Assembly (NCBI GenBank): GCA_009761415.1
Contig: QUOL01000031.1
Coordinates: 52,101 to 116,100, forward strand
Direction: 5' to 3'
Origin: Sarcomyxa edulis
Lineage: Eukaryota; Basidiomycota; Agaricomycetes; Agaricales; Mycenaceae
DNA length: 64,000 bases
Shown: positions 29,324 to 61,185 of the stretch, one piece after another
Layout: each line of letters opens with the position of its first letter
Numbering within the stretch: the stretch's first letter is position 1
Position numbers and translations under genes: made by a program
The notes under the pieces: generated by a model
What the model was told of the DNA's origin: nothing
The model's input: the letters and a program-made list of their open reading frames with translations, nothing else
Databases searched by the model: none

Positions 29324-29584
29324 TGTTGAACGATCACCTCGAGACTAGGTGACTACGTCACCGAGCGGACTTCCGCGGACCTCGAACATTCATACTTACA
29401 ATTTTCATCGCGCCTTCGACATACCTCAGTTGTTCTCTCCAGACACTGAGGTATGTCTCATAGCTATTACTTATTATATCTTCACTCATCCTACCTATCT
29501 AGGTATCTCTCGTATCTAGGTATTATCAATATATTTAGTTGTTCTCTCCAGACACTGAGGTATCTCTCGTATCTAGGTTCTATA
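29324..29584 (+). repeat. copia 5' LTR
   Basis: 261 bp, beginning TGTTGAACGATC and ending GGTTCTATA. Internally it holds two copies of TTGTTCTCTCCAGACACTGAGGT-type sequence and two of TATCTCTCGTATCTAGGT, so the LTR itself has short internal duplications. Confidence 0.92.
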
Positions 29585-29745
29585 GGTTATGGGCCAGTCT
29601 TCTTAGACGAAGAACCAACGAAAATTAATTTTCCCTCGCTCGCTATTCGCTCGCGGTCTCAATCCACCCATTCGGTGTCTTCCTTACCCCACTCGGTATC
29701 CATCAGCCCCCCTCGGCCTGTTTTTCGGACCTTTCTCGTCCCGAT

Positions 29746-34353: not shown

Positions 34354-34360
34354 GGGGGTG

Positions 34361-34621
34361 TGTTGAACGATCACCTCGAGACTAGGTGACTACGTCACCG
34401 AGCGGACTTCCGCGGACCTCGAACATTCATACTTACAATTTTCATCGCGCCTTCGACATACCTCAGTTGTTCTCTCCAGACACTGAGGTATGTCTCATAG
34501 CTATTACTTATTATATCTTCACTCATCCTACCTATCTAGGTATCTCTCGTATCTAGGTATTATCAATATATTTAGTTGTTCTCTCCAGACACTGAGGTAT
34601 CTCTCGTATCTAGGTTCTATA
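34361..34621 (+). repeat. copia 3' LTR
   Basis: 261 bp, no difference from the 5' LTR that I can find by eye. It is followed directly by the ACAAT duplication at 34622-34626. Confidence 0.92.
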
Positions 34622-43345: not shown

Positions 43346-44673
43346 GTGAGCACCCTTCAAAGTCCCATGCAGGAATCACGCTGACTCGGACCACATCTCC
43401 AGCTCTTGGTTGAAACAGTCCACATCGGTCCGTATTCTTCCCGTCTTGGTGATCGTTTTCTTCCTAAGCTGACTGAACCTGTGAAAAGTCTGCGCATTCG
43501 TATCGGTTTGGTACATCAGCTCTTTGACAGACTTGTTTGAGGACAGAAGTCGATCCTGGGGAACAGCTTCGTTGGCATTGATGCTCGCCGCGAACATGGG
43601 CATCACCTGTGCCATCGCCTTCTCGTTGTGGCGCGCTGGGAGGCAGATCTCGACAATTTCTGTCCGCGGAGACAATTACACGGTGTGAGGATGCCAGCAT
43701 CCCCAGCCAAGGAATCGACAACTATACAACAACCTACTCTTATGCGACTCCCCAGACATAGCTAACTACAGAGACACTGGTGGTATTACCACAAACGACT
43801 TACTTTTCGAATGACCGGACACTGAAAGACACCAAGTACCCGCTACTTGACGGTTCCTCCCCGAAAGCGGCCTCTTCATCCACTCACGAAACGCTAACCC
43901 GCCTTCGGTCACGTCTCAGAACGTTTTGGAATACCTGAAATCACACACGAACAACTTCTCCGAAGGAAATCTACCGCCAGAACCCAATTCCCTATCGTCG
44001 TTTCACCTGACCGAAGGCCCAATGTACTCGATCACCTCTCCGCAGCCCCCTAGATCCTTCGGACAGATCCCAAATCGTTTCAGCAGGCTCCCTTTCACCT
44101 CTAGAAGACCTCATCGAGAGATACTTCACCGATAAAACATTGCCACCAGTCGACATACCGCCAACGTGATGCTTACTGCCCTGAGCTGTTCTTCCTATCA
44201 AATCGGACATATTCCCTTTACATTGTGATCTCAATTCACACCTTTCCATGCATCTGGACGCCTCGTTAAGACCTCCGTCCACCCTGACCAAGTGGTGCTA
44301 CGGAATATTCTTCCCTCTGTGTTTATCACATGACACAGCACTTGTAAGCGAGGTATCGCCCGCTAACAAAGACACTACAGGTCTCCGCCTAGCAACCCAC
44401 ATCAAATTCACTCTTCTCGGACAACTTTGGCCGTCGCATCTTGGAAAAATCTATCGGAAGCTCCCCATCATCCTGCTCACTCGGACATGTTTCATCCCTT
44501 CACAAATTCACCTTGCAACGCTTTCAGAAAACACCTCAGGCCCTAACCTTTCACACTGAGCGAGGTTCGGACACATCAAAACCAATACCGGATCTGTTTC
44601 ATCATTGGAGATCTCGGGGACCTTGGGATGGCACTCGGGGTGAAGAATTAGGCAAGGACAGGGAAGGAATTCA

Positions 44674-44681
44674 TATATAAA
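44674..44681 (+). promoter_or_regulatory. TATA box in the Ty3 5' LTR
   Basis: TATATAAA, the strongest core promoter word in the LTR; same position in the 3' LTR (60431-60438). Confidence 0.5.
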
Positions 44682-44892
44682 GTAGGATAGGACATGGAGA
44701 ACGGTAGATAGAACCAGTGTGGACGAGAACCAGAGGAACATACCCGAATCGACCAACTACCCAGTCACTCTCTATAGGAATTCTATCTCTTTCTCATACT
44801 TCTGAAACCGAGACAAGGAACGATTACAGGAGTCGGTCAAAACAAGAGAAAAAGGACTTGATTCAGTCGGCAGTACCACTCCCGGAACAAAG

Positions 44893-45208
44893 GAAGCTCT
44901 CCGAAATCAGTCCAGAGCTGTCCGAAACCCTCGAAGCTCTCCGAAATCAGTTCAGAGCTGTCCGAAACCTTCGATAGCTCTCCGAAGACGTTTTATAACT
45001 ATACAAAGCATCGGTCAGCTCACCAAAAGCTGTCCGAGGCCCTCGTAGGTTCTCCAAGATCGAACTTATAGCTGTCCGAAGCCCCCGATAGCTCTCCGAA
45101 GACGTATTATAAGCCGTCCGAAGCATCGATCAGCTCTCCGAAAGCTGTCCGAGGCCTTCGTAGGTTTTCCAAGATCGAACCTATAGCTGTCCGAAGCCTC
45201 TAAACGGC
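44893..45208 (+). repeat. AGCTSTCCGAA tandem array in the LTR
   Basis: About a dozen copies of AGCTCTCCGAA or AGCTGTCCGAA, organised at the right in two higher-order units of roughly 115 bases. Each of those units also contains ACGTNTTATAA and a TAGGTT(C/T)TCCAAGATCGAAC word. The same array is at 60650-60965. Confidence 0.85.
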
Positions 45209-45458
45209 CTACCGAGAACGATCCTACAAGTCCGAAGCTTACCTTACACCTCATCATCTCATACCCACCTCACCACCATACGAACACATTATCCAAACAC
45301 AAGTCACTGGGCATTAGGATTTCTCGCTACGTAAAATCCCCTCCGAGAAAACGTCACCTTACCCCCTAGAGGCGAACTATAGTTAGGAGTCTAGCCCATC
45401 TACTCCTAGCGCCGCAGTCCTCATCACAACTGGAGCCCACCGCGAGGGGATTTAAAAG

Positions 45459-48092
45459 GTGTCTACTAGACGAGTTACCCGAGCCCAAACTCGTTTAGCT
45501 GAAGCAGAGCTTCAAGCCTTCTCTCAAACTTCCCGTATACCACATTTATCCGTCGAATATCCACAAAGCGACCTTTCCGAAGAAACGACTCCGCCCGAAT
45601 CGTCACCGCTATCGGACGTACCATCAATAAATCTTGATTGGTTGCCATCCCAAACACCTCCTTCCAACATAGATACCTCAGACGAAGAATTGCTCCCACG
45701 TTCCGTTGAATCGGACACTATTTCAACAGAAGCCTCCCTTACGCCCTCGGAAGACTCGGTTAGCCTAGCCCAGGGAAACGAACCGTCGAACAGTTTACCA
45801 GCCGAACCCTTATCTCACCTCCAATTGGAGTCTCGAATCCTATCCATCCCTTCCCGCCAAACTTCAACACAAGACCAAACACAGACTCAGCCACCTCCTC
45901 CGTCTCAGATACCGTTACCATCGAATCGCATAAACCCTCGAATATCCCAACCCCGAATACAGAAAAACCTTCCGACAATGACGTCAAGACCGCCGCCCAC
46001 CCGGACCAGCAGGGATGCTCCAAAATTTGATGGTCTCGACGAATCTGTTACAAGGTATTTCGAAGACATAGACCAAGTATGCACGGCGGCTGGGAAAGCG
46101 TCGGATAAAGAGAAAATCGACATGGCTAGGTACTACCTTGGGGCGGAAGACGAATCGCTTTGGAAGGTGGTTACCGCAAAAGACTGGGACGCCTTCAAAT
46201 CCGAAGTCCGGAAGCTTTATCCCGGATCAGACGAGAAAAAGAAATATACGCTCAATGATCTAGAGGTCTTGCTTGCAAAAGAAGCAGCAATACCGATTAA
46301 CACCAAATCGGACTTTGGAAAATACCATCGTTCTTTCACCAGGATATCGCATCATCTCAAAGACCAAAACAAGATCTCTGCTAAAGAAGAGAATCGCCTC
46401 TACGTAAAAGGACTCCACCCGCAGTTTCTGGTCCAGCTAATGGCCCGACTAAAAATCAAGAAGCCCGACCAGGAACTCGACGAACCATATATGATCGATG
46501 ACCTCTACAAGGAAGGCCAACATATCCTAGGAGGACAGGTTCTTTACAGCGGAACACAGACGACTGGAATGGATCCGGTAGTTAAACAAGAAATAGACGA
46601 AATGTCGAGGGAAATAAAGGCGCTTAATAGGGAGTTGGCAGCAAGCATGAGTACGTTGGCAGCCACGTTATCAAACATGGGGGCAAACCAGGCCATGTCA
46701 TACAATAACCGTTACCAAGGCTATGTCCCGGCGCAGGGAAGGGCACCTAACCCATTCCTCGATCGATCCCCTGTCCGAAGAACTCAAAACGGTCCAGGAA
46801 ACGGCTCGGTTTGTGCGTTCTGTTCGGACACGTCTCACTTCATTCGAGATTGTCCGAAGGTCGCCGAATTTATCAGAGACGGGAAATGCATGCGAAACAT
46901 GAACGGAAAAGTCGTACTTCCGAACGGAGCATGGGTTCCTTCAAATATAGAAGGAATCAACTTGGCTGCCAGAATCAACAGGTACCATGAAATGTATCCG
47001 GGGTCGATTATAAATGGCGTCAACTTTGTACGCGATGCACCTCCCCATGCCTCTACCATGTGGTTCGCATCGTCCGGAGAAACTTCTAGTTCGTACTACA
47101 AAGAGTCAAGGATCGAGGAGATCGAGGAAGAAGAAGAAGATATCGGAGAAGTCCTAGCAAACGAACAAGCAAGAAAAACCCGTAATGGCAAACCGCTGGA
47201 ACCTACGGAGAAACCTGTACCTGCTATGCGAAGGAAAGGACCCCCCGGACGACCTCAGCCGCTCCCTGACGATCCGGTCAGCCAAGTTCCTCCCAAAAGG
47301 AAAACGGTAGAATTCGAAAAGGATGCGACCGAAGGAAGGAAGCAGGTACAAACTGGTCCGCAGTATAAATTCTCAACGCCGATAGAAGATCCGGAGTTGG
47401 CAAAAAGGGTCTTGAACCGATCACTTGATACTCAGATATCCATCTCACAAAGAGAATTACTTTCGCTTAGCCTAGACGTCAGAAAACAGTACAAGGAACT
47501 GGTGTCTACTAAAAGGATTCCGACGGTTGGACGACTCGAGTCGATTAATCCGGACAACATCGACGAACCGGACTCCAGTTATATCCTTCGGTACGAAAAT
47601 CCGAACGGACCGGACGAAGAAATTCTCCTCACGGGCTCATCCATTGAAAAACTCAGAGTAATCTACCCGACTATCGAGGATGAAAAGGTCGAATGTGTGT
47701 TGGACGGAGGGTCGGAAATAATTGCCATGAACAAGGGACTTTGGCAGAAACTCGGAATACACTTGAGACCGGACCATAAAATCACTATGGAATCGGCCAA
47801 TAGCCAGCATGACACGACTACGGGGCTTATCGAGGACCTTAAATTTAATATCGGAGGACTCGAAATCTATCTGAAGGTCCATGTGGTGGAAAACGCTCCG
47901 TTCGAAATACTAATGGGACGACCATTCTTTAAACTAACGGGATGCGTTACCAAGGACTATACGACCGGAAACCAGGACTTGACCTTGACCTGCCCTAATA
48001 CAGGAAAGGTTGTCACAGTTCCAACGTTCGTCAAACCAAAACGATCTTCACCGACATCGGTGGGTTTTCGCCCGGTCGGAGGCCGTCAGTAG
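45459..48092 (+). CDS. Ty3 Gag with aspartic protease
   Basis: Open frame of 877 codons whose natural-looking start (STRRVTRAQTRLAEAEL) lies behind a GTG, with an in-frame stop just upstream at 45453-45455; the first ATG is 45979 (MTSRPPPTRTSRDAPKF). Gag core: FDGLDESVTRYFEDIDQVC, ARYYLGAEDESLWKVV, LHPQFLVQLMARLKIK. Zinc knuckle CAFCSDTSHFIRDC. The C-terminal part is the protease: VECVLDGGSEIIAMN (active-site Asp in DGG rather than DSG/DTG) and the flap-side ILMGRPFF. Stop TAG 48090-48092; pol follows in the -1 frame. Loss of the start codon may have silenced Gag, unless initiation is non-AUG. Confidence 0.85.
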   Translation: MSTRRVTRAQTRLAEAELQAFSQTSRIPHLSVEYPQSDLSEETTPPESSPLSDVPSINLDWLPSQTPPSNIDTSDEELLPRSVESDTISTEASLTPSEDSVSLAQGNEPSNSLPAEPLSHLQLESRILSIPSRQTSTQDQTQTQPPPPSQIPLPSNRINPRISQPRIQKNLPTMTSRPPPTRTSRDAPKFDGLDESVTRYFEDIDQVCTAAGKASDKEKIDMARYYLGAEDESLWKVVTAKDWDAFKSEVRKLYPGSDEKKKYTLNDLEVLLAKEAAIPINTKSDFGKYHRSFTRISHHLKDQNKISAKEENRLYVKGLHPQFLVQLMARLKIKKPDQELDEPYMIDDLYKEGQHILGGQVLYSGTQTTGMDPVVKQEIDEMSREIKALNRELAASMSTLAATLSNMGANQAMSYNNRYQGYVPAQGRAPNPFLDRSPVRRTQNGPGNGSVCAFCSDTSHFIRDCPKVAEFIRDGKCMRNMNGKVVLPNGAWVPSNIEGINLAARINRYHEMYPGSIINGVNFVRDAPPHASTMWFASSGETSSSYYKESRIEEIEEEEEDIGEVLANEQARKTRNGKPLEPTEKPVPAMRRKGPPGRPQPLPDDPVSQVPPKRKTVEFEKDATEGRKQVQTGPQYKFSTPIEDPELAKRVLNRSLDTQISISQRELLSLSLDVRKQYKELVSTKRIPTVGRLESINPDNIDEPDSSYILRYENPNGPDEEILLTGSSIEKLRVIYPTIEDEKVECVLDGGSEIIAMNKGLWQKLGIHLRPDHKITMESANSQHDTTTGLIEDLKFNIGGLEIYLKVHVVENAPFEILMGRPFFKLTGCVTKDYTTGNQDLTLTCPNTGKVVTVPTFVKPKRSSPTSVGFRPVGGRQ

Positions 48093-48136
48093 TCGAGACG
48101 AACCTTCGAAAAAGCATATCGGTCAAGTATTTTACG

Positions 48137-51100
48137 GTGACCGACGATACCCAGACTGCTGAAATTAACGATCATAATGTAACAACGAACTCGACGACAC
48201 GATTTTCCCCTTCCAGACTGGGCCACCCAGCAAGTAACATATTTACCGGAACACGCTACGAAAACATGGAAACGGAGGGAGCGGAGCAAACCCTCAACCA
48301 GCCCTCATGTGAAAATTGTATACTAAATGAAAATACGCAATGCCTGACGCTTTCGGACAACAAAATACCGCAGAAGAGAAAGAAGGGGAAGAAGTACAAA
48401 CCGGTAGATAAAAGGACCCAACCGGTCGCTGCTACGCTACCAGAGGAATACAGGATAGTACGAAAGTTCCCGTCGGACCCGCTGGAAACGCTGCCTGAGC
48501 TACCAACGCATCCACCGCGATTCGAACCAGGCACGAGATATACGATGGAAAGGATGATGGAACAGAATATCAACCCGGACGGCTTTTTATGGCCTGAGGA
48601 AGAAAAACTAGTCCATCATATAATCAAAACGCACGAAATGGCGTTCGCCTGGAACGAGATGGAAAAGGGCCACTTCAGATCGGACTACTTCGAACCGATT
48701 AAGCTCCCAGTTCTTGAACACACCCCTTGGAGCTATAAAAACATTCCGATACCACCGGGAATACGAGATAAGGTGGTACAGGCAGTCAAAGACAAGATAG
48801 CGGCAGGAGTATATGAACCATCGAATTCATCGTACAGGTCGAGGTGGTTCTGCGTGCCAAAGAAGGATGGGGTATCGTTAAGGATTGTGCATGATTTACA
48901 GCCTCTTAATGCTGTAACGATAAAGGACGCGGGCTGCCCGCCAATCGTCGAAGTCTATGCGGAGTCCTTCGGTGGGGCCACAATATATGGAATGTTCGAT
49001 CTGTTTGTGGGATTCGACCACAGAATCCTCGCTATACCCTCAAGGGATCTTACGACGTTCCAAACGCCGATGGGCACTTTCAGGTTAACAAGGCTTCCAC
49101 AAGGATACACTAATTCGGTCCAGATACAACAGGGAGATGTTTCGTTCATCCTGCAAGACGAGATTCCGAGCATCACACAACCGTTCGTGGACGATTGTCC
49201 GGTGAAGGGACCAGCAACGTACTACCAATCGGAAACTGGGGAATACGAAACAATACCGGGCAACCCAGGGATAAGGAGATTCGTGTGGGAACACCTGGTG
49301 AACGTCAATCGAATCGTTCACCGAATAAGGCATGCAGGAGGAACGTTCAATGCCAAGAAATCATTTCTGGCAGTACCATCGGTCGTCATTGTTGGCCACC
49401 GCTGTAACGTGCATGGCAGGATCCCGGATGAAACAAAGGTCCAGAAAATCAAAGATTGGCCGCCCTGTGAAGATTTAACAGATGTCCGAGCCTTCCTAGG
49501 AACGCTCGGACTAATGAGAATCTTCATAAAGAACTTTTCGCTACATGCGCGGCCGCTGGTCATGCTTACACGAAAGGATGTCGATTTCGTCTTCGGATTG
49601 CCACAGATAAAAGCCATGGAAACGCTCAAACATCTCTTAATAACCTCTCCGGCACTCCGAGCAATAGACTACCACTCGGAAAGGATGGTCTATCTAGTTG
49701 TCGATTCGTCTTGGAGGGCGATGGGCTGTGTCCTGCTGCAACTCGGACAAGACGGGATCGAATATCCATCCAGATTTGGCTCTATTACATGGAATGAACG
49801 CGAGCAAGGATACTCCCAGGCAAAAATCGAACTCTATGGCTTATTCAGGGCCCTCAGGGCTTATAGGTTATACATAGTCGGGGTTAAAAACTTGACGGTC
49901 CGAACAGATGCGAAATATATCAAAGGGATGCTAAATAATCCGGATATACAACCTAATGCGGCTATCAATAGATGGATAGCAGCTATCCAGCTGTTCACGT
50001 TCAAACTAGAGCACATTCCAGGAACGGCGATGGGGCCGGCGGACGGTCTATCTAGACGACGAAAGGCCCCGGAAGACTCGGAAGAAGAAGACGACGTCGA
50101 AGAATGGATCGATAGGGCATGCGGATTTTCGGTCGAAATGCTAAACTGGAACGAAAACAGAGCTCGGTCAATATTGGATACGGTGCCGCCTCATCGATTA
50201 ATGATAAATGACCGCGATTTTCCCGAAGCCATAGCAAAGGCATATTTCGCCTCGTTACCTGGCCGAAGAAGAGAAGTATCGGCAGTCCTTATTGGCGAAG
50301 TTGTCCCGAACGTGGTTATTCCTCAGTCGACTCTCGCCATCAAACAAGACGAAGAACTCGTACGAATAACGGAGTACCTTGAAACGGCGAACAGGCCCGA
50401 AGGATTGTCCGATAAACAATTCAAAGCGTTTATGAAGAAAGCAGCTCACTTCTTTGTCCTAAATGGGCAATTATGGAGAAAGGACAGGCAGCTGAAACAC
50501 AAAGTCGTACTCCCACCGGAAAAGAGGATTCAAATAATGGCCGAACTTCATGATAAATTCGGGCATAAAGCAACGTGGACAACGAAGGTCAGGCTGATGG
50601 ATAGGTTTTGGTGGCCAAGCATGAGCAGAGATGTGTCCTGGTTCGTCAGGACGTGTCACCAATGTCAACTCAGAAACAGTTCGAAGATCCACATTCCTCC
50701 GACTGTGGCGGTTCCGTTTCCGCTATTTGGGAAAATCTACATGGACACAATGCACCTTCCTACAGTCGATGGCTTTCATGTGATTGCTCATGGACGATGT
50801 TCGCTCAGCTCATATCCGGAGTGGAGAATGCTGAAAAATGAAAGCGCTGTTAATCTGGCCAGTTTCATCTTCGAAGATGTCCTATGCAGATGGGGAAGTA
50901 TAATGGAAATCGTCACGGATAATGGGAAACCTTGGGTCAAAGCGGTCGATCACCTCAAAAAGCAATATGGAATCAATCATATACGAATTTCGGGTTATAA
51001 TTCGCAAGCGCAGGGGGTCATCGAGCGAAAGCACTACGATGTCCGAGAATCGCTCATTAAGTCGTGCGATGGGAATCAATCAATTTGGCCGAAAGCAGCG

Positions 51101-51811
51101 CATGCCATATTTTGGGCCGAGCGGATTACAATTCAGAAATCCACGGGGTATTCGCCATATTACATAGCGCACGGTGTCCAGGCGATACATCCGTTTGATT
51201 TGGAACAGTCAACATACATGCACCCGTTTATCGACGAAGAAATGGACTTCGGAGAACTCATAACGCGAAGAGCGATGAAGCTTCAAAGACGGGAAAAGGA
51301 GCTATCGAAAATACAGAGAGACAAGTACAAGGCTAGGCTCGAGTCGGCAGAGCAATTCCTGAAGAAGTATGAAGGACAGATTTACGATTTCAAGTTCGCC
51401 CCGGGGAGGCTCGTACTCATCAGAAACACAAGGATCGAGAAGGAACTGAATAACAAGATGAAGCCCCGATATATAGGTCCGATGGTTGTTGTCCGGCAAA
51501 CGAAATCGGGAAGTTATATACTCTCCGAAGTCAATGGTGCGATCGCGGAACATCGATTTGCGGCGCACCGACTGGTACCATACTTCAGGAGGAACGAAAT
51601 CACTATCCAAGTCACAACTTTAGTAGGTAAAACTACGAAACAGCTGAACGAGATGGCGGACGACGATACACCAGACGAATACAGCTTGGTGGAGCCAGGG
51701 GACGACTCGCTACCAGGAACATACAGGACGAGACTTTGGCAGTTCCCCAGGAAACCGGAACACGAAGGGACGACGTTAACGCCAGAACAAACGGGGCAAA
51801 AGAGGACGTAG
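48137..51811 (+). CDS. Ty3 Pol: reverse transcriptase, RNase H, integrase
   Basis: Frame -1 relative to gag and open well upstream of 48137, overlapping the end of gag, so expression by -1 ribosomal frameshift is likely (the start given is only the first GTG). Reverse transcriptase: RWFCVPKKDGVSLRIVHDLQ, MFDLFVGFDHR, LPQGYTNSVQ, FVDDCPVKGP. RNase H: VVDSSWRAMGCVL, SQAKIELYGLFRALR, RTDAKYIKGML, GPADGLSRRR. Integrase: an HHCC finger (ELHDKFGH ... CHQCQLR), Asp in YMDTMHLP, Asp in EIVTDNGKPW, Glu in GVIERKHYDVRES. C-terminal LVLIRNTRIEKELNNKMKPR is a GPY/F-like module without a chromodomain. Uninterrupted, all catalytic residues present. This is a clade common in mushroom genomes (NPGIRRFVWEHL motif). 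Confidence 0.93.
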   Translation: MTDDTQTAEINDHNVTTNSTTRFSPSRLGHPASNIFTGTRYENMETEGAEQTLNQPSCENCILNENTQCLTLSDNKIPQKRKKGKKYKPVDKRTQPVAATLPEEYRIVRKFPSDPLETLPELPTHPPRFEPGTRYTMERMMEQNINPDGFLWPEEEKLVHHIIKTHEMAFAWNEMEKGHFRSDYFEPIKLPVLEHTPWSYKNIPIPPGIRDKVVQAVKDKIAAGVYEPSNSSYRSRWFCVPKKDGVSLRIVHDLQPLNAVTIKDAGCPPIVEVYAESFGGATIYGMFDLFVGFDHRILAIPSRDLTTFQTPMGTFRLTRLPQGYTNSVQIQQGDVSFILQDEIPSITQPFVDDCPVKGPATYYQSETGEYETIPGNPGIRRFVWEHLVNVNRIVHRIRHAGGTFNAKKSFLAVPSVVIVGHRCNVHGRIPDETKVQKIKDWPPCEDLTDVRAFLGTLGLMRIFIKNFSLHARPLVMLTRKDVDFVFGLPQIKAMETLKHLLITSPALRAIDYHSERMVYLVVDSSWRAMGCVLLQLGQDGIEYPSRFGSITWNEREQGYSQAKIELYGLFRALRAYRLYIVGVKNLTVRTDAKYIKGMLNNPDIQPNAAINRWIAAIQLFTFKLEHIPGTAMGPADGLSRRRKAPEDSEEEDDVEEWIDRACGFSVEMLNWNENRARSILDTVPPHRLMINDRDFPEAIAKAYFASLPGRRREVSAVLIGEVVPNVVIPQSTLAIKQDEELVRITEYLETANRPEGLSDKQFKAFMKKAAHFFVLNGQLWRKDRQLKHKVVLPPEKRIQIMAELHDKFGHKATWTTKVRLMDRFWWPSMSRDVSWFVRTCHQCQLRNSSKIHIPPTVAVPFPLFGKIYMDTMHLPTVDGFHVIAHGRCSLSSYPEWRMLKNESAVNLASFIFEDVLCRWGSIMEIVTDNGKPWVKAVDHLKKQYGINHIRISGYNSQAQGVIERKHYDVRESLIKSCDGNQSIWPKAAHAIFWAERITIQKSTGYSPYYIAHGVQAIHPFDLEQSTYMHPFIDEEMDFGELITRRAMKLQRREKELSKIQRDKYKARLESAEQFLKKYEGQIYDFKFAPGRLVLIRNTRIEKELNNKMKPRYIGPMVVVRQTKSGSYILSEVNGAIAEHRFAAHRLVPYFRRNEITIQVTTLVGKTTKQLNEMADDDTPDEYSLVEPGDDSLPGTYRTRLWQFPRKPEHEGTTLTPEQTGQKRT

Positions 51812-52002
51812 GGCCGGCGAGGCAACGATAAAGACTTCTTAAAATTTCACCTTATATTCATCTGGCTTATTTAACAAGAAATCGATTCATATTTCTACAT
51901 TAAAGGTGGTGTCCACCGAGAAAAGGGGGGGGAGCGTACAAAGTCGGAAATCTGCGACGGGTTATCAAAACAAACAAGAAAATACGAGAAGGTGGACTTG
52001 TG

Positions 52003-53489
52003 CTACAAGAACGCCATAGCAATCTCCTCCTCGTCCGCCTCATCGATAGCATCCTCGATCAAGACGCGATACGCCAAACCAATTTCCTTCATTACTTGAT
52101 CAATAATCGGGGTCATATGATCAACGACAACGGGGCTTAGCACGCCAAAAGCGGACGAATCACTGGCACCGTCGAGAAGACGGGACCTAGAATTGCGAAC
52201 GATGGCATCCATTTTCTCGCTGCGTGCGATACTGGAATCAGATCGTGGCCGAGGATGGTGCTCCGGAGACAGGCGAATGACTGGACGTCTGGGGTCGATA
52301 CGCGAAAGGGAGCCAGAAGCCACGTTACGAAGGAGGGGAAGGGCTGACGAACTAGCAGTCGGGTTCGCCGATGTCTTAATCTCACCGGACGCCTCGCTGG
52401 AAACGACTTCGGGCCTTTTTAGGACCTTGATGCAGCCGGTAGCGCGAGCCATTAATTCGCCTACAAAGGGGAAAGAATTTCTATGGTTGCAGTTGTGTCC
52501 GTCACTACAGGGAGAAGGCTCACTGAGGTTATCCTCTCCACCTACGAGATTGCATGCGGACTGCTTCCCTTCACAGAAGTCGCATGCTTGAGACCTGAAA
52601 CCGGGGCAAGAAACGTCATTGCGAATACATTCGGAACATCGGTAGTCCTTGAAGAGGGTAAAAGATGGGGTCAATGACTTGAAAAACATAGGATGAGATA
52701 CGGGGAAAGACTGACTCTGGCTCGGATAAAAAAGAGGCGGTTCTTTCTGGATGCTCTATCCTGTTTCGCTGAAGAAAGTGTTCGATAGGCTTCAACTGCT
52801 GGGAGGACGGTGATTTTGGGTACGGGGAAGCCGGTAACTTTTCTCGACCGACGGGTAGGTTGGCTGGTCCGTTCCCTCCCCGGAGAGTCACTTTGGGGCT
52901 CGACATCGCTAGCAGCTACGACCATTCGGACGCGGGCAACTTTAAATGACCGGCTTACGGGCGCGAGAAGAGTACTTACAAGAATCGGCCAACTCGTCGC
53001 TCGAAAACTCAGGATCGAAATTAGCAACGGCCACGGTGCGCGGAAGATTATACGAAATGGCCTCGAGAAGAAAGTCGGGAACGTAGGGAAAGTTATTAAT
53101 GAACTTTATAACGGACGAATTCAATTCCGGAAAATTGTGGAAATAGGCTGGCGGAGCCCTAGGATAACCGATCGATAAAAGGGTGAACATCATGGACCTC
53201 AATTCTTTCGACGACTTCGTGATACGATCAGGCATTAATTGCCTGTAAACACCGAAAAGCGAACCGGGAATTCGTCTAGTCGATATAAGGGCGCTTCGCT
53301 GAGCAGCGGAGAGGGTTCGCAAATCAGTATCACCAGAAAGGGCGGACAAGAGAGGCTGTGCGACGGTGCCATCCAGAATATCTGAACAAAAAACTTGTTA
53401 TCAAACCAACTATGGACGATGAAGGAATATCGCGAACCCGTGATCGACCTATTAAACTTTCCTGAAAAAGCACCAGTGGTGGACGACAT
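52003..53489 (-). CDS. Antisense accessory gene 1 (Cys-rich protein) in the Ty3 element
   Basis: ATG 53489 (MSSTT), a donor GTGCTT, then DILDGTVAQPLLSALSGDTD, RRIPGSLFGVYRQLMPDRIT, SKELRSMMFTLLSIG, FINNFPYVPDFLLEAISYN. A GTAAGT intron joins DELADS to FARVRMVVAASDVEP in phase; a third intron joins FFIRAR to SLTPSFTLFKDYRCSECIRN. A Cys-rich patch follows (CSECIRNDVSC, CDFCEGKQSAC), a possible zinc-binding site of C-x2-C-x6-C-x(n)-C-x2-C-x6-C form. The tail is acidic (DAIDEADEEEIAMAF). Four exons, about 420 residues. It converges with pol, 191 bp apart. Function not recognised. Confidence 0.55.
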
Positions 53490-54174
53490 ATCTAAGAACC
53501 CTGATGGACGAAGAAGATACCGTCAATAAAAGAGGTTTCGAGAATAAAAGACCTCTCCTAAAAAGAATCTCAGCCCGGGTATCTCCAGCCACGTGGAAAA
53601 GAAGCCGAATCGATTGCCGAAACGATAAGGTCTTTGGTAAACAACCGCTCACAAAAAGAAGGATGGCGATCTATGAGGAGAAGAGGAAAAGGATGCTGCT
53701 ACGCACTAATAGCAATAAGAACCTGGAAGTCAAAATACGAACGTTAAATTGGAAGAACACGAAAGGAAGAAATACGAAGAACCGAAATACGAGACAAGCA
53801 AGAAAGAATAGTATGGTTGGCGCATGGGGCTTATAACCTCGTAACGGAACGGATAGAGAGCGACGGCTCTCCTGTACACAGTGACGAAATACTGCGAAAA
53901 AGACCACGGACGACAAACGATCGAAAGAAATTGGAAGAAAACGACTATGCGGGGTTCGGAGACGGTAGATCTGGCTGGCCAGCGGATCTACTGACGCAGA
54001 CCGAACCCAATTATGCGCTGATATGATAAAAGTATGCAACTCACGACGTTTTACAGATTTACGAGGAGACCGAGACGCTGGGTCTCACACTATGCAAAAT
54101 TATGAACGAATTATGCGCCTGTTATCAGGCATTTATTTTACAAGAGACAAGGAATCGGAAACTCATCGGACGGT
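53490..54174. other. spacer between antisense genes
   Basis: About 0.7 kb. A plus-strand frame at 53504-53836 is very Lys/Arg-rich and lacks any domain; it is probably incidental because A-rich composition is general on this strand of the element. Confidence 0.35.
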
Positions 54175-55109
54175 CTACAGAATGGTAGTATCAGGTACCG
54201 CTCCAGCTCCTCGACGATTAGCCCTTGCCCCTCCGCGACCTCTCACACGCGTCGCACCGTTCCGAGGATCTACCTGTCCGAAAGCTCCAGGGCCGAAATG
54301 AACTTGGTGGAGGCCTCCGAGACGAGGATCGGGAACGTCTCCATGAAGACGGACCTCTTCAAAGCCCTCTTTTACGGGAAACCTCGCGACGAAGGGGACA
54401 AGAGGATATTGAGGAGCAGGAAGAACAGGATTGGGAACGAAAGCCGCCCGCAATTTGAGCAGGTCGTTAACTTGCTGCTGCTTCATTTCGGGGAGCACGC
54501 CGTACACGTTGTACGCATCGGACGACTCAAATCCATCGAAATCCAGGGCAGTTCCGACGTATCCGACCTAGAAAAAGACGAAAAGAAATAAATCAACGAA
54601 GAATGAGAACCAAGAAATATGTAAAACGTGCCTGGGCAACCATCTCGCTCTTCACCGACGACAAAAGATACCCAACGTTCCTAACGTTGACCGCAACGTA
54701 GTCCCCTCGAAACCAAAGTTCTTCAGAAAGAACTCGAGCATGGCGACGGTAGTGGTGGCTTGAGCGGGAATTGGAATGGTATCCCAAGAGCCTGATTTAA
54801 TGGCCTCGGAGGCTCGGAGTTTCATAGCTTGATGCTGGACGGACGATGTTGAAAGAGGAACGATGAAGGAAAAACAAGCGAGCCGCTTACTACGTAATTG
54901 ACGATCCGGGTGAGGAGGGTCCTGACCCAGAGCCTTTCCTCGAGAGGAACGTCCGTCGGACACCTCCCATTAACGGAGAGATGAACGATGCCTAGGAGGC
55001 TACGAATTGACCGAGACCAGATGGTGGTCGGAGACCTCTCATTCTCGAGGTCGGGATCCTGGGGATTTTCGGGAAAGCGATTTGCAGACAAACGGAGAAT
55101 AAAGGACAT
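54175..55109 (-). pseudogene. Antisense accessory gene 2, one-base frameshift
   Basis: ATG 55109 (MSFILRLSANRFPENPQDPD), with WSRSIRSLLGIVHLSV, the place of the LRPMM motif of its neighbours. A GTAAGC intron joins RIVNYV to HQAMKLRASEAIKSGSWDTI, then PIPAQATTTVAMLEFFLKNF. At a run of four G (complement of 54703-54706) the frame changes; one more G would restore DYVAVNVRNVGYLLSSVKSE. A GC...AG-type intron then leads to VGYVGTALDFDGFESSDAYN, VYGVLPEMKQQQVNDLLKL and an Arg-Gly-rich tail. Probably inactivated by this single indel, unless there is a sequencing error. Likely a diverged member of the paralogous set. Confidence 0.45.
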
Positions 55110-55210
55110 CGTTGATGGAACTTTACTGACTTAAGGATCAGAGCAAACGATTCGGGGAGGTTTATATATGCAGACTACAATAAGTGGCATATGATTCTGG
55201 GAGCGTTACT

Positions 55211-55929
55211 TTACTCCGTCGTTTCCTCCTCCGACCCTGGCCAGTCCTCCGCGTCGCTATATCCTGCACCTTCGGACTCCCCCTCGACTACGACAACGCG
55301 CTTAGGTACGACCCTTTCGAGGAGATCGAGACGGATCGATCTGGTCATCGCGCTTTCCAACGCGGCATCCCCGGGCTTCTCGTACTCCGGCCAATCGAAG
55401 GCATCTTCAGCCGACGCGTAAGCCGCCAGGGCGCGTATGCTAAGCTCGGTAAGAGCTCGGACGGCTTCGACCTCCCAATGAATGGGGCTTGCTGGCTGAA
55501 TTCGGACAGCCCGACAAATCAAGCGCAAATGGCTAATCGTTCTATTCATCTCGGACGGAATCATGTATAAACGCCTGTCCTGCTTGTTCAGCTCCTGCCA
55601 CTGGCTGTGGAAATGGACCTGTTACCGATCAAGTGAAAACCCGTTAAACAATGAGATCGCTAAGGGTCGAGCTTAGACCAACGTACCGCGAGGAGCAACA
55701 CGATTTGCGCATTGCAGTAGTAGGGAACCCTCTCGCGACCAGTTAAAGCTACGAAGTAGCCATCGGGCCCGAGTTCACGGAATATAAAATCGGCAACGAG
55801 GCCGACAGCGGGGCGCAGGAGGCACCTGAGATAGTGAATCATTCCGTCACGATCAAGGATATCGAACGTTGCTGCCTCTTGGGCAAGAGTGTTCAAAAGG
55901 ACTTGGTGTAGGGGTTCCATAATTTTCAT
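55211..55929 (-). CDS. Antisense accessory gene 3 (LRP/IPSE/WPEY paralogue)
   Basis: ATG 55929 (MKIMEPLHQVLLNTLAQEAA). Exon 1 contains MIHYLRCLLRPAVGLVADF; a GTACGT...CAG intron after IVLLLA joins VHFHSQWQELNKQDRRL. Then MIPSEMNRTISHLRLICR, AFDWPEYEKPGDA and an acidic tail (EGESEGAGYSDAEDWPGSEE) to a stop at 55211-55213. About 205 residues, complete. It shares three motifs in the same order with the two next genes (LRP near residue 35, IPSE after the intron, aromatic-PE-aromatic before the tail). No known domain. Shares the minus-strand orientation of the whole array. Confidence 0.55.
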
Positions 55930-56014
55930 GGGCTCTGCGGTGACCTGTACGGAGGAATTGATTCACCCTTTTTTATACTAAAATATCGCGCTATTCAGCT
56001 ATCGGACACCCCTT

Positions 56015-56609
56015 CTACTTGCCCGTACCCTCCCCTGCCAACCGTATCACGAACTCCGGAAATTCCACGGCAGCTGCCTCTCGGTGCATTACAGGGACGA
56101 TAGACCAAAGGAACTCCTTCGTTAAATCCTTCCTCTTCACAAGTACATCCTCATCGTACCCGAGCTCAACTCCGTGATGGATAAGGAATAGCTGCACCAT
56201 GCTTGCGAGGCGCAACGCTTCTGACGGAACCACGGCCTCGTCTCCTCGGCCAATTGCCGTCACCCTATCCCTAAACCGTAGAATGGCATCCTAGAAGACG
56301 TAAGGTTAACACTCCGAAGCTCACCGAGTGAACACGGACGCCTACCAAATGATCCAACACGATGCGGAACCAGCCTTTCGTCTCGCTCCATATGATTGGT
56401 TCAACGGTGTCTCTCGGGGAACTCGTTATAAGATAAGCCGCGTACCCCCGCTCGACGATCTCCATCATAGGGCGGAGGCGGAACCGAAGGAAATTTGTAA
56501 AGCCCTCGGTAGGAGCGAAATCCCCGGCAAGAACTTCAGGAGGATGAGCGTACGACAAAAACTCGTCTCGGAGAGCTTGAGTAAACGATGAACTAACGAC
56601 ATGCGACAT
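56015..56609 (-). CDS. Antisense accessory gene 4 (LRPMM/VPSE/FPEF paralogue)
   Basis: ATG 56609 (MSHVVSSSFTQALRDEFLSY). Exon 1 has EGFTNFLRFRLRPMMEIVER; a GTAGGC...TAG intron after VLDHL joins DAILRFRDRVTAIGRGDE. Exon 2 has AVVPSEALRLASMVQLFLIH, LVKRKDLTKEFLWSIVPVM and AAAVEFPEFVIRLAGEG, stop at 56015-56017. About 180 residues, complete, mostly helical by eye. It is the clearest paralogue of genes 3 and 5; the intron sits at the same place as in gene 3. Unknown function. Confidence 0.55.
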
Positions 56610-57667
56610 TTTGGCTGGAATAACGATGGCTATCCTGCGCCAGCTGGCGTTCTTTATACCTCATCGGACTTAGGACTGACGTCTCGGACCGATAAGAGGT
56701 GTCCGAACGGACTCCGTGCAGCCACTGTTAACCGTTGGATTTTCCGGACCGTGCCTTATCAGAAGCAGTAAGACGCATGTTCTTCGGTATAGATGCTCAC
56801 GGAACGATTGCGAATGCCACATGCAAAAGACACGAGCTGGCCGCCACGTCGCGCCGCTACCTGGGACCATCTTTTCGACTATTGTCGCAGGTCCTTGCCT
56901 CACCTGATACACTTCGCCGTGTCTCGTTCCTTCGCAAAGATTTCGCAAGATCGCGGTCACATCACCCGCACACGTATTAACCCGCACAGTCTCAACTGCG
57001 CCGTAAGAACAACGACGATCAGGACGCAAGCCACCTCGATCTAAACGGCCATGACTTCATGAAGCCACTGGCGCTTGACGGCTGTCGGCTTTGAGCGCTG
57101 TAGAAATGCAACTGCATCATCTTGAAGAGAGAACAGCATCTTGCGCCGGCCGAGTTATTGAACGGGACGAGAAGATCATCCTGACATCGCATATCGGCGA
57201 GGCTACGGAAGAACGAAATGATGACCAGGCCACTGAGCGATATAGCGAAATTGTAAAGGAGAAAAGCTCTGAAAGCATTAATAACCTCTCTCCGTTCTCA
57301 TCTCACTCGCCTCCCCTCTGAACTTTCCTCTCATCAAGAGCCGCTGACGGAGTTACGAACTGTCCGCGATTCAAATGTCTGCGCACAGCGGGTGGAATCA
57401 TCGGACATCGGTACCCTTTATAAAGGAGGTTGGGAGGCTGCCCGAAATCGTTGTTGCCCTCCGGACTGACAGTGCATTCCATAAACTACAAGATCTCTGA
57501 ACACGGCACGCGAAAGGAGTGTTTACCCATTAAAGTACCAACGACGACAAAAACCCCCTCGGTCACATCCAGGAAAGCTTCCCCGCTACGCGTGCGTTCT
57601 GAAATGCGAATTTCCGACTATTAGTATCCCTCTGAGGGGCCCAAAGAACGAGACCGACGGCGCCTGC
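56610..57667. other. spacer of 1.06 kb in the accessory array
   Basis: No frame carries the shared LRP or IPSE motifs. It may hold the promoter of gene 4 and the remains of a lost member of the array, but I cannot support a gene. Confidence 0.3.
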
Positions 57668-58236
57668 TTACCAGAACACCAGGTCCTCAAATTCGGGATA
57701 CTCCTTTGCCCCGCCAGTCAATGAAGCGTTAACGTCGGCCTCATCTTTTAGTGACTGAAGCATTTCCCTCCTCTGACCGACGCTGCTGAGGGCCCAGTCC
57801 CCGTGAAATCCGACCTTGTCATAAACGATAAGACTGAACTCCATCATACGGGATACCTCTGAAGGAATTTTAAATTCGGCGGCGTTGGCATCGGTCCTGG
57901 CCCGCTGACGGTATGCAACGATGAGTTCCTGCGCAGAAGGATTTTTTAGTATCTCTGCGTTGCCCCGCTGAAAAACGGTGGAAGCCCGTACAACGTTCTC
58001 GACGAAAAACCGCATAAGCCGCCTCGACAGCGTATACTGCCCGATAACGCTATCGGTGTCATCGGGAAATGCTGTCACCCTATGGGGAAGCGTCGCCTGG
58101 ATGACACCGAACATCATACGAAGGCGTTTGCGGAAGAATCCATCGAAGCCCTCGTGCGATAGAAGACGGGTCGAATGAAGGACGGGACGTTCAGCGTCAT
58201 GAAGTAGTCGCAGAGTCTCTCGCGAGCCATTTGCAT
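57668..58236 (-). pseudogene. Antisense accessory gene 5, frame break near its start
   Basis: Main frame: HEGFDGFFRKRLRMMFGVIQ (the LRPMM site), SVIGQYTLSRRLMRFFVENV, AAEFKIPSEVSRMMEFSLIV, SSVGQRREMLQSLKDEAD and AKEYPEFEDLVFW, stop at 57668-57670. This frame has no ATG before the LRMM motif; a stop lies a little upstream. The plausible start MQMARERLCDYFMTLNVP (ATG 58236) is in another frame, so a frameshift near 58150-58175, or an unrecognised intron, separates the two. Shares all three motifs with genes 3 and 4. Confidence 0.45.
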
Positions 58237-58345
58237 ACTGCGGCAGGCATTTCGATTTTCAACACGAAAAGACTCGTCGTTTATATGTACATGATGACTG
58301 CATGCCCTCGATCACCTCTCCGAACCCTTCCCTCTTCTTGCCGCC

Positions 58346-59281
58346 TCATGCCCCCGACAAATTGTTTAGTCCCTGTTCGATAATCGCCGCCCCGCCAATC
58401 AAACCGTTCCTCTCCTCTTCGGATAACGTCTCCAAAAGCAGGCGAAATGCCCGTGTGTTGCCAAGCTTGCGAGTGGCTGGACTGTACCTCTCCGATCAGC
58501 TCGTTGCCGCACCGCTAAAGTGTCAGAATTCTTACCGGACAAGCCCTTTCTACCTCGGCCACCTCCATTTCTTCGTCCCCGTCGTCCGTTGCAATACTTA
58601 TGACGGATATGCCTTCGTCTTCGTTGTTAGCCGGATTTTCTTCCCCCTCGAGGCTGTTGCCCCTGTCCGTACTAATCGTACCATCTCGATGTACCTGGGA
58701 CCGCTGTATGGATGCTTCTTCAACACGGCATGCGCATGGAACCGACCACGCGGGTCCGCCTCGATGTAATCGAAAGCGACGCCGAATGTCGATCGGCGGG
58801 CGTATTCTTCTATGAAGTACAAGATAACGTCGATCTTATGTGCCTCGTCCTCGTCCTGATTCCCGGAAAACCCTACGACGTGGACGCACCGCTGCACCTG
58901 GTAAACGGCGGTCACTGCTTCCTTGGGAAACGGCTCCGTGGTATCGTCCATGCACCTCCCCTTCAGTACCCATCTAAGTCTGAGCATGAATACCTTGACC
59001 TTCGCAATTAGCACGGACCCCCTGAAAGACGCACACGCACTCACCATGTGCTGGCACAAGATTTTAACGTGCTTTCTCAACGTGTATACACCGTGACTCG
59101 AGAACTCCGGAAGGAGAACGTCCGCCACTGCATCCTGAAAAATGCAGCTAACAACTAGGTGAACCATGGGACGGATATTGTTACGCAGGTATCCGAGGAA
59201 AGTTGCCATCGTAATATCGCCATCTATCCCGTCTAGATCGAGGCAGCGCGTAAAGAAGAGTTCTTTTGCTATGGGATCCAT
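58346..59281 (-). CDS. Antisense accessory gene 6 (LRNNIRPM paralogue), three or more exons
   Basis: ATG 59281 (MDPIAKELFFTRCLDLDGID), then TMATFLGYLRNNIRPMVHLV at the position of the shared LRPMM motif. A GTGAGT intron after ILCQHM leads to an exon with LRWVLKGRCMDDTTEPFPKE, AVTAVYQVQRCVHVVGFS and IDVILYFIEEYARRSTFGVA. Further on the coding frame changes to EEASIQRSQVHRDGTI, NSLEGEENPANNEDEGISVI and an acidic stretch, by either a small intron or a frameshift near 58700-58760. A 70-base intron then gives LGNTRAFRLLLETLSEEERN, GLIGGAAIIEQGLNNLSGA and TGA (complement of 58346-58348). Nearest gene to the 3' LTR; its promoter would lie in or beside it. Confidence 0.5.
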
Positions 59282-59400
59282 TTGGCTTGTTGCTTTCAGG
59301 AAAGCTCTGGCTGTCTTAACCTTGGAATTTATAGGTCCTTGGCCGGTCGTCCTTGCCCTGTTTTGGTCACGGGCACGTTGTTGTGTTTGCCCTCCGGATG

Positions 59401-59420
59401 ATCGACCGGGGACGGTCGAT
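59401..59420. other. 7-bp stem inverted repeat before the 3' LTR
   Basis: ATCGACC and GGTCGAT separated by GGGGAC, 20 bases before the 3' LTR and just upstream of the polypurine tract (AGGAGGAAG, 59432-59440). Could be a hairpin in either transcript. Confidence 0.3.
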
Positions 59421-59440
59421 ATTTAAAAGTTAGGAGGAAG

Positions 59441-61185
59441 TGTGAGGATGCCAGCATCCCCAGCCAAGGAATCGACAACTATACAACAACCTACTCTTAT
59501 GCGACTCCCCAGACATAGCTAACTACAGAGACACTGGTGGTATTACCACAAACGACTTACTTTTCGAATGACCGGACACTGAAAGACACCAAGTACCCGC
59601 TACTTGACGGTTCCTCCCCGAAAGCGGCCTCTTCATCCACTCACGAAACGCTAACCCGCCTTCGGTCACGTCTCAGAACGTTTTGGAATACCTGAAATCA
59701 CACACGAACAACTTCTCCGAAGGAAATCTACCGCCAGAACCCAATTCCCTATCGTCGTTTCACCTGACCGAAGGCCCAATGTACTCGATCACCTCTCCGC
59801 AGCCCCCTAGATCCTTCGGACAGATCCCAAATCGTTTCAGCAGGCTCCCTTTCACCTCTAGAAGACCTCATCGAGAGATACTTCACCGATAAAACATTGC
59901 CACCAGTCGACATACCGCCAACGTGATGCTTACTGCCCTGAGCTGTTCTTCCTATCAAATCGGACATATTCCCTTTACATTGTGATCTCAATTCACACCT
60001 TTCCATGCATCTGGACGCCTCGTTAAGACCTCCGTCCACCCTGACCAAGTGGTGCTACGGAATATTCTTCCCTCTGTGTTTATCACATGACACAGCACTT
60101 GTAAGCGAGGTATCGCCCGCTAACAAAGACACTACAGGTCTCCGCCTAGCAACCCACATCAAATTCACTTTCTCGGACAACTTTGGCCGTCGCATCTTGG
60201 AAAAAATCTATCGGAAGCTCCCCATCATCCTGCTCACTCGGACATGTTTCATCCCTTCACAAATTCACCTTGCAACGCTTTCAGAAAACACCTCAGGCCC
60301 TAACCTTTCACACTGAGCGAGGTTCGGACACATCAAAACCAATACCGGATCTGTTTCATCATTGGAGATCTCGGGGACCTTGGGATGGCACTCGGGGTGA
60401 AGAATTAGGCAAGGACAGGGAAGGAATTCATATATAAAGTAGGATAGGACATGGAGAACGGTAGATAGAACCAGTGTGGACGAGAACCAGAGGAACATAC
60501 CCGAATCGACCAACTACCCAGTCACTCTCTATAGGAATTCTATCTCTTTCTCATACTTCTGAAACCGAGACAAGGAACGATTACAGGAGTCGGTCAAAAC
60601 AAGAGAAAAAGGACTTGATTCAGTCGGCAGTACCACTCCCGGAACAAAGGAAGCTCTCCGAAATCAGTCCAGAGCTGTCCGAAACCCTCGAAGCTCTCCG
60701 AAATCAGTTCAGAGCTGTCCGAAACCTTCGATAGCTCTCCGAAGACGTTTTATAACTATACAAAGCATCGGTCAGCTCACCAAAAGCTGTCCGAGGCCCT
60801 CGTAGGTTCTCCAAGATCGAACTTATAGCTGTCCGAAGCCCCCGATAGCTCTCCGAAGACGTATTATAAGCCGTCCGAAGCATCGATCAGCTCTCCGAAA
60901 GCTGTCCGAGGCCTTCGTAGGTTTTCCAAGATCGAACCTATAGCTGTCCGAAGCCTCTAAACGGCCTACCGAGAACGATCCTACAAGTCCGAAGCTTACC
61001 TTACACCTCATCATCTCATACCCACCTCACCACCATACGAACACATTATCCAAACACAAGTCACTGGGCATTAGGATTTCTCGCTACGTAAAATCCCCTC
61101 CGAGAAAACGTCACCTTACCCCCTAGAGGCGAACTATAGTTAGGAGTCTAGCCCATCTACTCCTAGCGCCGCAGTCCTCATCACA
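59441..61185 (+). repeat. Ty3 3' LTR, 1,745 bp
   Basis: Offset exactly 15,757 bases from the 5' LTR; two single-base indels distinguish the pair. It ends CATCACA and is followed at once by GCGTACGATG of the second Ty3 element. On the minus strand it is the upstream sequence for the antisense gene array. Confidence 0.93.

Follow-up and report, generated by a model that had tools for sequence, protein, structure and literature searches.

Antisense gene battery, gag-pol-less copies and family-specific DNA words in a Ty3-type retrotransposon lineage of Sarcomyxa edulis

Why should a retrotransposon carry a row of genes on the strand opposite to gag and pol? The question is raised by a 64-kb stretch of Sarcomyxa edulis DNA (hereafter the window), in which a Ty3-type long terminal repeat (LTR) retrotransposon spans positions 43684-61185 and six minus-strand gene models, G1 to G6, occupy 52003-59281. 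The initial annotation had placed an antisense array between pol and the 3' LTR, and the six models lie exactly there. Our analysis adds features beyond that annotation: some elements retain the battery although gag-pol is missing, G1 falls into diverged lineages, most of G2-G6 have TATA boxes, and each family has a DNA motif of its own. We consider it about an even chance (roughly 50%) that the battery is a nuclear system that would recognise the DNA of its own family, working like VANC anti-silencing or a retroviral transactivator, on a retrotransposon.

Antisense genes, paralogy and selection

G2 to G6 were modelled by hand on another copy, L009, with introns taken as pairs of ends chosen to join the frames, partly through comparison between the family of the window element (A) and a related family (B). 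In window coordinates, all on the minus strand, G2 lies at 54175..55109 (exons 55109-54891, 54834-54632 and 54567-54175) and has an RG-rich C-terminus, and G3 lies at 55211..55929 (exons 55929-55687 and 55618-55211) and has an acidic tail. G4 follows at 56015..56609 (exons 56609-56346 and 56290-56015), G5 at 57668..58250 (exons 58250-57992 and 57928-57668) and G6 at 58346..59281 (exons 59281-59045 and 58999-58346). The spliced L009 models of G2 to G6 are open over 271, 216, 179, 173 and 297 amino acids, with introns of 45-68 nucleotides (nt). Intron ends are GT-AG in these models, with the exception of G2 intron 2, which is GC-AG in A and GT-AG in B. The window copy carries frame-shifting indels in G2, G5 and G6, so other copies are the better witnesses: all five genes are open in 9 of 13 A copies, and 58 of the 65 gene-copies are open.

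Comparison between copies supports the predicted splicing. In seven gene-copies (G5 of L016, L019, L020, L021 and L022; G6 of L013 and L020) the unspliced frame is cut short, yet the frame with the intron removed is open. A metagenome protein, P0001, is 63% identical to G2 over 48% of its length, and the similarity begins at the predicted acceptor of G2 intron 2 (junction judged by eye). The annotation had given introns to most of the models; splicing is retained in ours and extended to G5. Its proposal that introns may persist because the element's genomic RNA has the opposite sense is in agreement with the data. A TATAAA is present at -35 to -59 from the ATG in all five A genes G2-G6 (at -48, -49, -35 and -52 in G3 to G6 of the window), whereas about 11% of the 100-nt intervals of the block contain TATAWA. 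In B, where this background is 4%, a strict TATA box precedes two of six genes, and TATAAG or CATAAAA two more.

G2-G6, together with an additional B gene, Gx, form one paralogous family of 11 members in the same genome, five in A and six in B. A blastp run among these 11 sequences only, the E-values of which refer to that tiny set, joined A_G4 with A_G5 (2.9e-9), A_G5 with B_G4 (1.4e-10), A_G4 with B_G6 (1.9e-6) and A_G2 with A_G5 (8e-4); G3 and Gx tie weakly to the other genes (best E 0.007 and 0.031). Judged from these similarities, paralogy is firm for G2, G4, G5 and G6 and weaker for G3 and Gx. All 11 hand-made models place intron 1 in phase 0 within columns 95-99 of the alignment, a match that is not blind because introns were picked to join frames, partly by comparing the families. 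The description of antisense, spliced, paralogous genes amplified in a Ty3-type element is supported. As to membership, several genes, G2 included, do belong to one family, but the gene at 52003-53489 encodes a different, Zn2Cys6-like protein.

Family B (L023-L028, modelled on L025 alone) has the same gene order and strand as A, with Gx between G4 and G5. B G2 is 48-53% identical to A G2, with both introns at equivalent positions, and the accessory proteins overall are 30-53% identical between the families. No blastn match of more than 100 nt was found at E 1e-10 between the fetched B stretches and the A element. Across the two families gag-pol DNA can be aligned, at 72-73%; identity to A pol is 84% in five near-full pol copies, and the one at C12 is contiguous with a B block. 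Hence the accessory genes either change more quickly than pol or have a longer history. The idea that the DNA separating G5 from G4 in A is a relic of Gx found no support.

Selection was assessed in an alignment of 13 A copies, from which L010 is absent (its block is interrupted) and the truncated L017 was left out of the counts. Variable sites amounted to 4.8% in exons, 7.7% in introns and 8.2% in intergenic DNA, and frame-shifting indels to 3.2, 28.4 and 14.2 per kb, respectively. In the predicted frame, 119 synonymous and 46 non-synonymous changes were counted at an expected non-synonymous share of 0.717, giving a ratio of non-synonymous to synonymous polymorphism (pN/pS) of 0.15 (p 2.6e-31; the copies are related and recombining, and p-values serve as guides). 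The five A genes gave 0.03-0.24 each, with G5 at 0.03. Autonomous copies alone showed 76 synonymous and 27 non-synonymous changes, and eight gag-pol-less copies alone 101 and 33 (pN/pS 0.13, p 1.9e-29). Among the other five readings, two shifted and two opposite-strand frames gave pN/pS of 2.3-3.9; the third opposite-strand frame gave 0.21, as expected because its third positions coincide with those of the predicted frame. At the level of sequence comparison, these counts show that the A accessory genes are under protein-level selection, including in gag-pol-less copies, and that the array is more than chance open reading frames (ORFs).

B agrees overall when its genes are pooled: six copies carry 39 synonymous and 28 non-synonymous changes (pN/pS 0.28, p 3e-7). 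At most one indel was seen in 3888 B exon bases versus 16 in 1225 intergenic bases, and this lone exon indel may be the end of G2, which runs beyond the L024 match; all indels per kb were 0.26 in exons, 5.2 in introns and 13.1 in intergenic DNA. Synonymous/non-synonymous counts by gene (G2 9/2, G3 5/2, Gx 12/7, G4 3/4, G5 3/5, G6 7/8) indicate that the B signal comes from G2, G3 and Gx.

Relatives of the battery proteins were sought among about 8000 best candidates per protein search, in a database of uncertain fungal content. The nine spliced family models other than the two G2 gave no match at E 0.001, the two G2 gave a single match, a metagenome fragment, at E 0.01, and the non-autonomous G1 gave none at E 0.01. 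Viral contigs searched with the two G2 yielded none. Among PDB sequences the two G2 matched none, and the nine other models gave four weak matches to Rho GEF (E 0.42-0.7). Pfam scans of the window ORFs, the same nine spliced models and three G1 returned no family above cut-off for the antisense proteins; a RavJ peptidase match of G5 (17.7 vs 26 bits) was discarded since it extends over intron sequence. An alignment of window sequences alone, prepared for folding, was of poor quality and left unused. With no cellular source found in these protein searches and no Pfam family above cut-off, the earlier wording that the gene family was captured is not sustained.

Host element, gag-pol-less copies and G1

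The window element has two LTRs of 1745 bp in direct repeat, at 43684..45428 (5') and 59441..61185 (3'), which differ by two compensating 1-nt indels and are otherwise identical; a PBS-like (primer-binding-site-like) stretch, recognised by eye, follows the 5' LTR. Its plus strand carries a gag and aspartic protease ORF at 45459..48092 (Pfam gag-asp_proteas, Asp_protease_2) and a pol ORF at 48137..51811 (Pfam RT_RNaseH, Integrase_H2C2). Two LTRs with the order gag, protease, RNase H and integrase correspond to the Ty3/gypsy layout, the class being read from this gene order.

The annotation had proposed that the array would be discredited if other copies of the element lacked it. Searches of the assembly (35.6 Mb, 40 contigs) with single exons, the counts of which are lower bounds, returned at least 67 matches for G5 and at least 68 for G6. 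By G6, the region is kept at no fewer than 29 A loci and at least 8 B loci. Searches of this genome gave only A and B loci plus two weak places (E 0.1), with LTRs checked at part of the loci. The 29 A loci were paired by distance and strand with the 16 A-like rows of 44 pol matches and with the non-autonomous G1. Twelve have a pol, ten of them at 6.8-7.5 kb and two at about 14 kb. In another twelve a diverged G1 replaces gag-pol; for one of them a pol was met at 16 kb as well, and was counted as foreign. The remaining five have neither inside the limits, and at least one of them, C8:23342, resembles an autonomous copy interrupted by a nested element.

A typical gag-pol-less element, of the L013 type, consists of a 5' LTR, a PBS, about 2.55 kb with the diverged G1, a block equivalent to window 53848-59440 and a 3' LTR. 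Eight copies of this type have G2-G6 blocks that match the window block at 97.4-98.9% identity, and the block tree mixes autonomous with non-autonomous copies. The flanks show 4-bp duplications, whose two sides agree in 4 of the 7 non-autonomous and 2 of the 3 autonomous elements inspected; the window element's own flanks have no matching duplication. From layout, block identity and duplications we infer that the gag-pol-less copies were transposed in trans by autonomous ones.

G1 (52003..53489, minus strand; exons 53489-53474, which is uncertain, 53381-52980, 52915-52716 and 52647-52003) comprises an N-terminal domain, a basic linker, six cysteines spaced CX2CX6CX7CX2CX6C and an acidic C-terminus; in B G1 the corresponding spacing is CX2CX8CX7CX2CX6C. 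Such binuclear-cluster spacing of six cysteines is a mark of fungal Zn2Cys6 DNA-binding proteins, and G1 of both A and B shows it. Over about 100 residues encoded by the N-terminal exon, identity between autonomous and non-autonomous G1 is 38-42%; the non-autonomous G1 fall into several lineages. Four pairs were compared, all including L013: against L022, L020, L015 (517-520 codons) and L012 (342 codons), synonymous divergence (dS) was 0.60, 0.69, 0.76 and 0.65, and the ratio of non-synonymous to synonymous divergence (dN/dS) 0.17, 0.12, 0.13 and 0.10. Identity between L013 and L022 drops from about 98% to about 75% inside the G1 region, which points to a recombination break. Two further Zn2Cys6-like cysteine patterns occur in the window outside the element (10200-11050, minus strand).

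Several observations concern insertion and neighbourhood. The flanking tetramers of ten A elements (window, L018, L031-L047) have a central CG in 20 of 20 cases, a CpG-centred insertion preference, with matching duplications in 6 of 10. The gag-pol-less A element L042-L043 (C8:10690-22649) apparently sits inside G5 of another A element, as its flank resembles G5 sequence by eye, and the family therefore seems to nest in itself. At L029 1570-6452 a Ty3-type element, chromodomain-like by eye, is apparently nested in a B element between pol and the accessory genes. Elsewhere in the window, 29324-34621 holds an element with two identical 261-nt terminal repeats and a 1535-amino-acid ORF, copia-like by eye, and ORFs at 61181-63880 on the minus strand, adjoining the 3' LTR on the opposite strand, resemble another Ty3-type gag-pol by eye.

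Family-specific words and their candidate reader

In a look at k-mers, TGTCCGA stands out in the A LTR and CCGATC in B. Counts were compared with 300 dinucleotide shuffles (seen/expected). In A, TGTCCGA occurs 11/0.2 in the LTR (5' copy), 4/0.5 in gag, 5/0.8 in pol, 3/0.3 in the non-coding part and 3/0.6 in the exons of the block, and 3/0.5, 2/0.4 and 3/0.5 in three non-autonomous G1 regions. In B, CCGATC reaches 24/2.0 on the LTR side, 22/4.7 in exons and 11/1.2 in non-coding DNA. Outside the element, in 28 kb of the window, the two words occur 5/4.8 and 7/18.9. Codon-preserving shuffles gave a similar picture for B: CCGATC counts in the two gag-pol ORFs are 11/2.7 and 12/2.5, jointly 23/5.5 (ORFs taken stop to stop, with a 118-base overlap counted twice), and 22/5.7 in the coding sequences of G2-6 and Gx, in both cases rank 1 of 2080 hexamers. 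For A, GTCCGA gives 16/6.7 in gag and pol and 7/2.5 in the accessory coding sequences, with TGTCCG ranking fourth in the former. Each word is close to or below expectation in the coding DNA of the other family. The density of TGTCCGA per kb is 1.8-2.1 in four A sequences, against 0-0.22 in three B sequences and 0.13 in other DNA (47 kb); that of CCGATC is 5.6-6.8 in B, against 0.4-0.8 in A and 0.34 in other DNA.

Occurrences of the A motif are divided between the two strands (6/5 in the LTR, 5/4 in gag-pol, 2/4 in the antisense region), a pattern more in keeping with a signal in DNA than in RNA; an RNA packaging signal as its meaning is disfavoured for this reason. Two related families in one host have different words over the same gene set, so the reader is most simply encoded by the element. 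Besides gag-pol, the antisense battery is the part of the element that could supply one, and it is kept where gag-pol is gone. Both words contain CCG/CGG, and Zn2Cys6 proteins read CGG/CCG triplets.

We propose that a Ty3-type lineage carries an antisense battery of one Zn2Cys6-like G1 and five or six paralogous small-protein genes. These would be expressed as spliced transcripts, most of G2-G6/Gx from their own TATA box, and their proteins would act in the nucleus, where one or more might bind the family motif and so coat, activate or un-silence copies of their own family. Autonomous copies would supply gag-pol to the gag-pol-less ones, satellites that keep the battery. A more detailed version is offered tentatively, as somewhat doubtful: VANC-like self-recognition on the antisense strand, in which the paralogous nuclear proteins and the Zn-cluster protein may read a family word written throughout the element, even into the codon choice of gag and pol, while gag-pol-less satellites carry private G1 lineages. 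If the proposal is true, such a family of transposons would amount to a regulatory system that helper copies carry about.

A number of observations weigh against self-recognition by the battery. The motifs were picked from the data in an unplanned look; B gag-pol was retrieved later and served as the test segment. Enrichment is weaker for the A motif than for that of B (GTCCGA ranks 3 in gag and pol and 13 in accessory coding sequence), the B motif is uneven in orientation (gag-pol 15/8, LTR 17/8), TGTCCGA is unenriched in the autonomous G1 region (0/0.3), and CCGATC shows no clear enrichment next to B G1 (6/3.3 and 2/0.9). Pfam Zn_clus scored 13.2 against a cut-off of 21 bits in an A non-autonomous G1 and was unlisted for two other G1. 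The promoter scan of G2-G6/Gx detected no TATA-like box for B G2 and B Gx. Single-sequence structure models of G6 and G5, made from window frames including introns, gave no usable fold (mean pLDDT, a per-residue confidence score, 39 and 40). Seven of ten A intron indels lie in the G5 intron, homopolymer assembly errors could inflate indels, and selection in B is clear for G2, G3 and Gx only, not for G4, G5 and G6.

Any explanation has to accommodate what the sequence comparisons demonstrate: the genes, their order in two families, paralogy, protein-level selection, retention without gag-pol and the family-specific motif. The battery may serve replication in another way, in the particle, nuclear import, RNA handling or an env-like role, with the motif as a separate feature. 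The RG-rich tail of G2 would suit such a role, and retroviral accessory proteins do such jobs according to the accessible part of a review (PMC7264820). We regard this as rather unlikely, for two families that share a host use different words, within coding sequence as well, and this suggests a DNA reader specific to each family; that gag-pol-less elements keep the battery under selection points the same way, although this alone is insufficient to exclude a replication role. G1 and the battery might instead control copy number or superinfection, each G1 lineage repressing or excluding elements of other lineages. The deep divergence of non-autonomous G1 (dS 0.60-0.76) next to G2-G6 blocks 97-99% identical to the window's, and the interleaving of autonomous and non-autonomous copies, are what it would predict. 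Old lineages and recombination, as at the L013/L022 break, explain the pattern without immunity, however, and G1 dN/dS is low, not raised, so we find it unlikely.

Host-derived cargo that benefits the fungus and is spread by retrotransposition would account for genes that look spliced like host genes and are under selection. It appears very unlikely, since genome searches, with LTRs checked at part of the loci, gave hardly anything but A and B loci, the protein searches among about 8000 best candidates each gave no cellular homologue, and the 6-7 kb stretches beside three pol relatives of about 51-53% identity (L030, L049 and L050) contained no antisense G2-G6 homologues. Antisense RNAs without coding capacity occur in other retroelements, as the same review states in its accessible part (PMC7264820), and the array could accordingly be chance ORFs or an RNA regulator without protein function. 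Low pN/pS in each of five A genes, low dN/dS in non-autonomous G1 and a gene order common to family B refute this as regards protein coding and leave it scarcely credible, although the RNA may have a further role. Self-recognition by the battery is the reading carried into the comparison below.

Comparison with known systems

The comparisons below follow the accessible parts of the cited sources. Antisense additional ORFs between pol and the 3' LTR, and non-autonomous versions, are shared with the plant elements Retand, Grande and RIRE2 (aORF-3R; PMC11963269, PMC7264820). The Grande antisense ORF gives a nuclear protein from its own promoter (PMC11963269, PMC7264820). Retand, described from flowering plants only, has 104 long antisense ORFs over 122 clusters, with a TRP28 domain in nearly all clusters; its text uses 'intron' 0 times and 'spliced' 2 times (PMC11963269). 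The present case differs in the number of genes, six in a single element with five paralogues among them, in their modelled splicing, in the fungal host and in the family-specific motif. TRP28 (PF04195) had no match in the Pfam scans described above. The function of antisense genes of plant LTR elements is unknown according to the review (PMC7264820); to that puzzle this case contributes a battery with measurable selection and a candidate DNA target word per family, which makes its function directly testable.

Within fungi, brtn of Boty/BcGypsy1 in Botrytis is likewise an antisense extra gene in an LTR retrotransposon (Zhao et al. 2011 as cited in PMC8365987, PMC7264820), but it is described there as a single gene; a survey of fungal LTR elements also exists (PMC3248453). 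The bdelloid rotifer element TelKA2n differs in having one env-like ORF, with no antisense battery described in the part seen (PMC5408684). A literature search covering best-ranked matches and few subscription papers returned no comparably large array of spliced antisense genes for any fungal LTR element, no gag-pol-less elements keeping such a battery and no VANC-like motif in a retrotransposon. G1 resembles fungal Zn2Cys6 transcription factors in the cysteine spacing of A and B and in the CGG/CCG triplet of both motifs, and is unlike them in its Pfam Zn_clus result (below cut-off in one of three G1, unlisted in two).

VANDAL is a DNA transposon. A parallel to the family words is found there: in Arabidopsis, VANC proteins encoded by VANDAL elements provide a precedent for recognition of a family-specific DNA word by a protein of the element (PMC5735166, PMC10398659), the word being short, dense in the element and in its repeats, rare elsewhere and different in related families (PMC5735166). 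The words reported here are likewise dense in their own family, rare elsewhere and different in the related family. VANC21 motifs lie mainly in non-coding regions, arrayed in one orientation (PMC5735166), whereas ours extend from the LTR repeats into gag, pol and accessory coding DNA and, in A, lie on both strands. If our reading is true, sequence-specific counter-silencing, known from VANDAL elements, can arise in a retrotransposon too.

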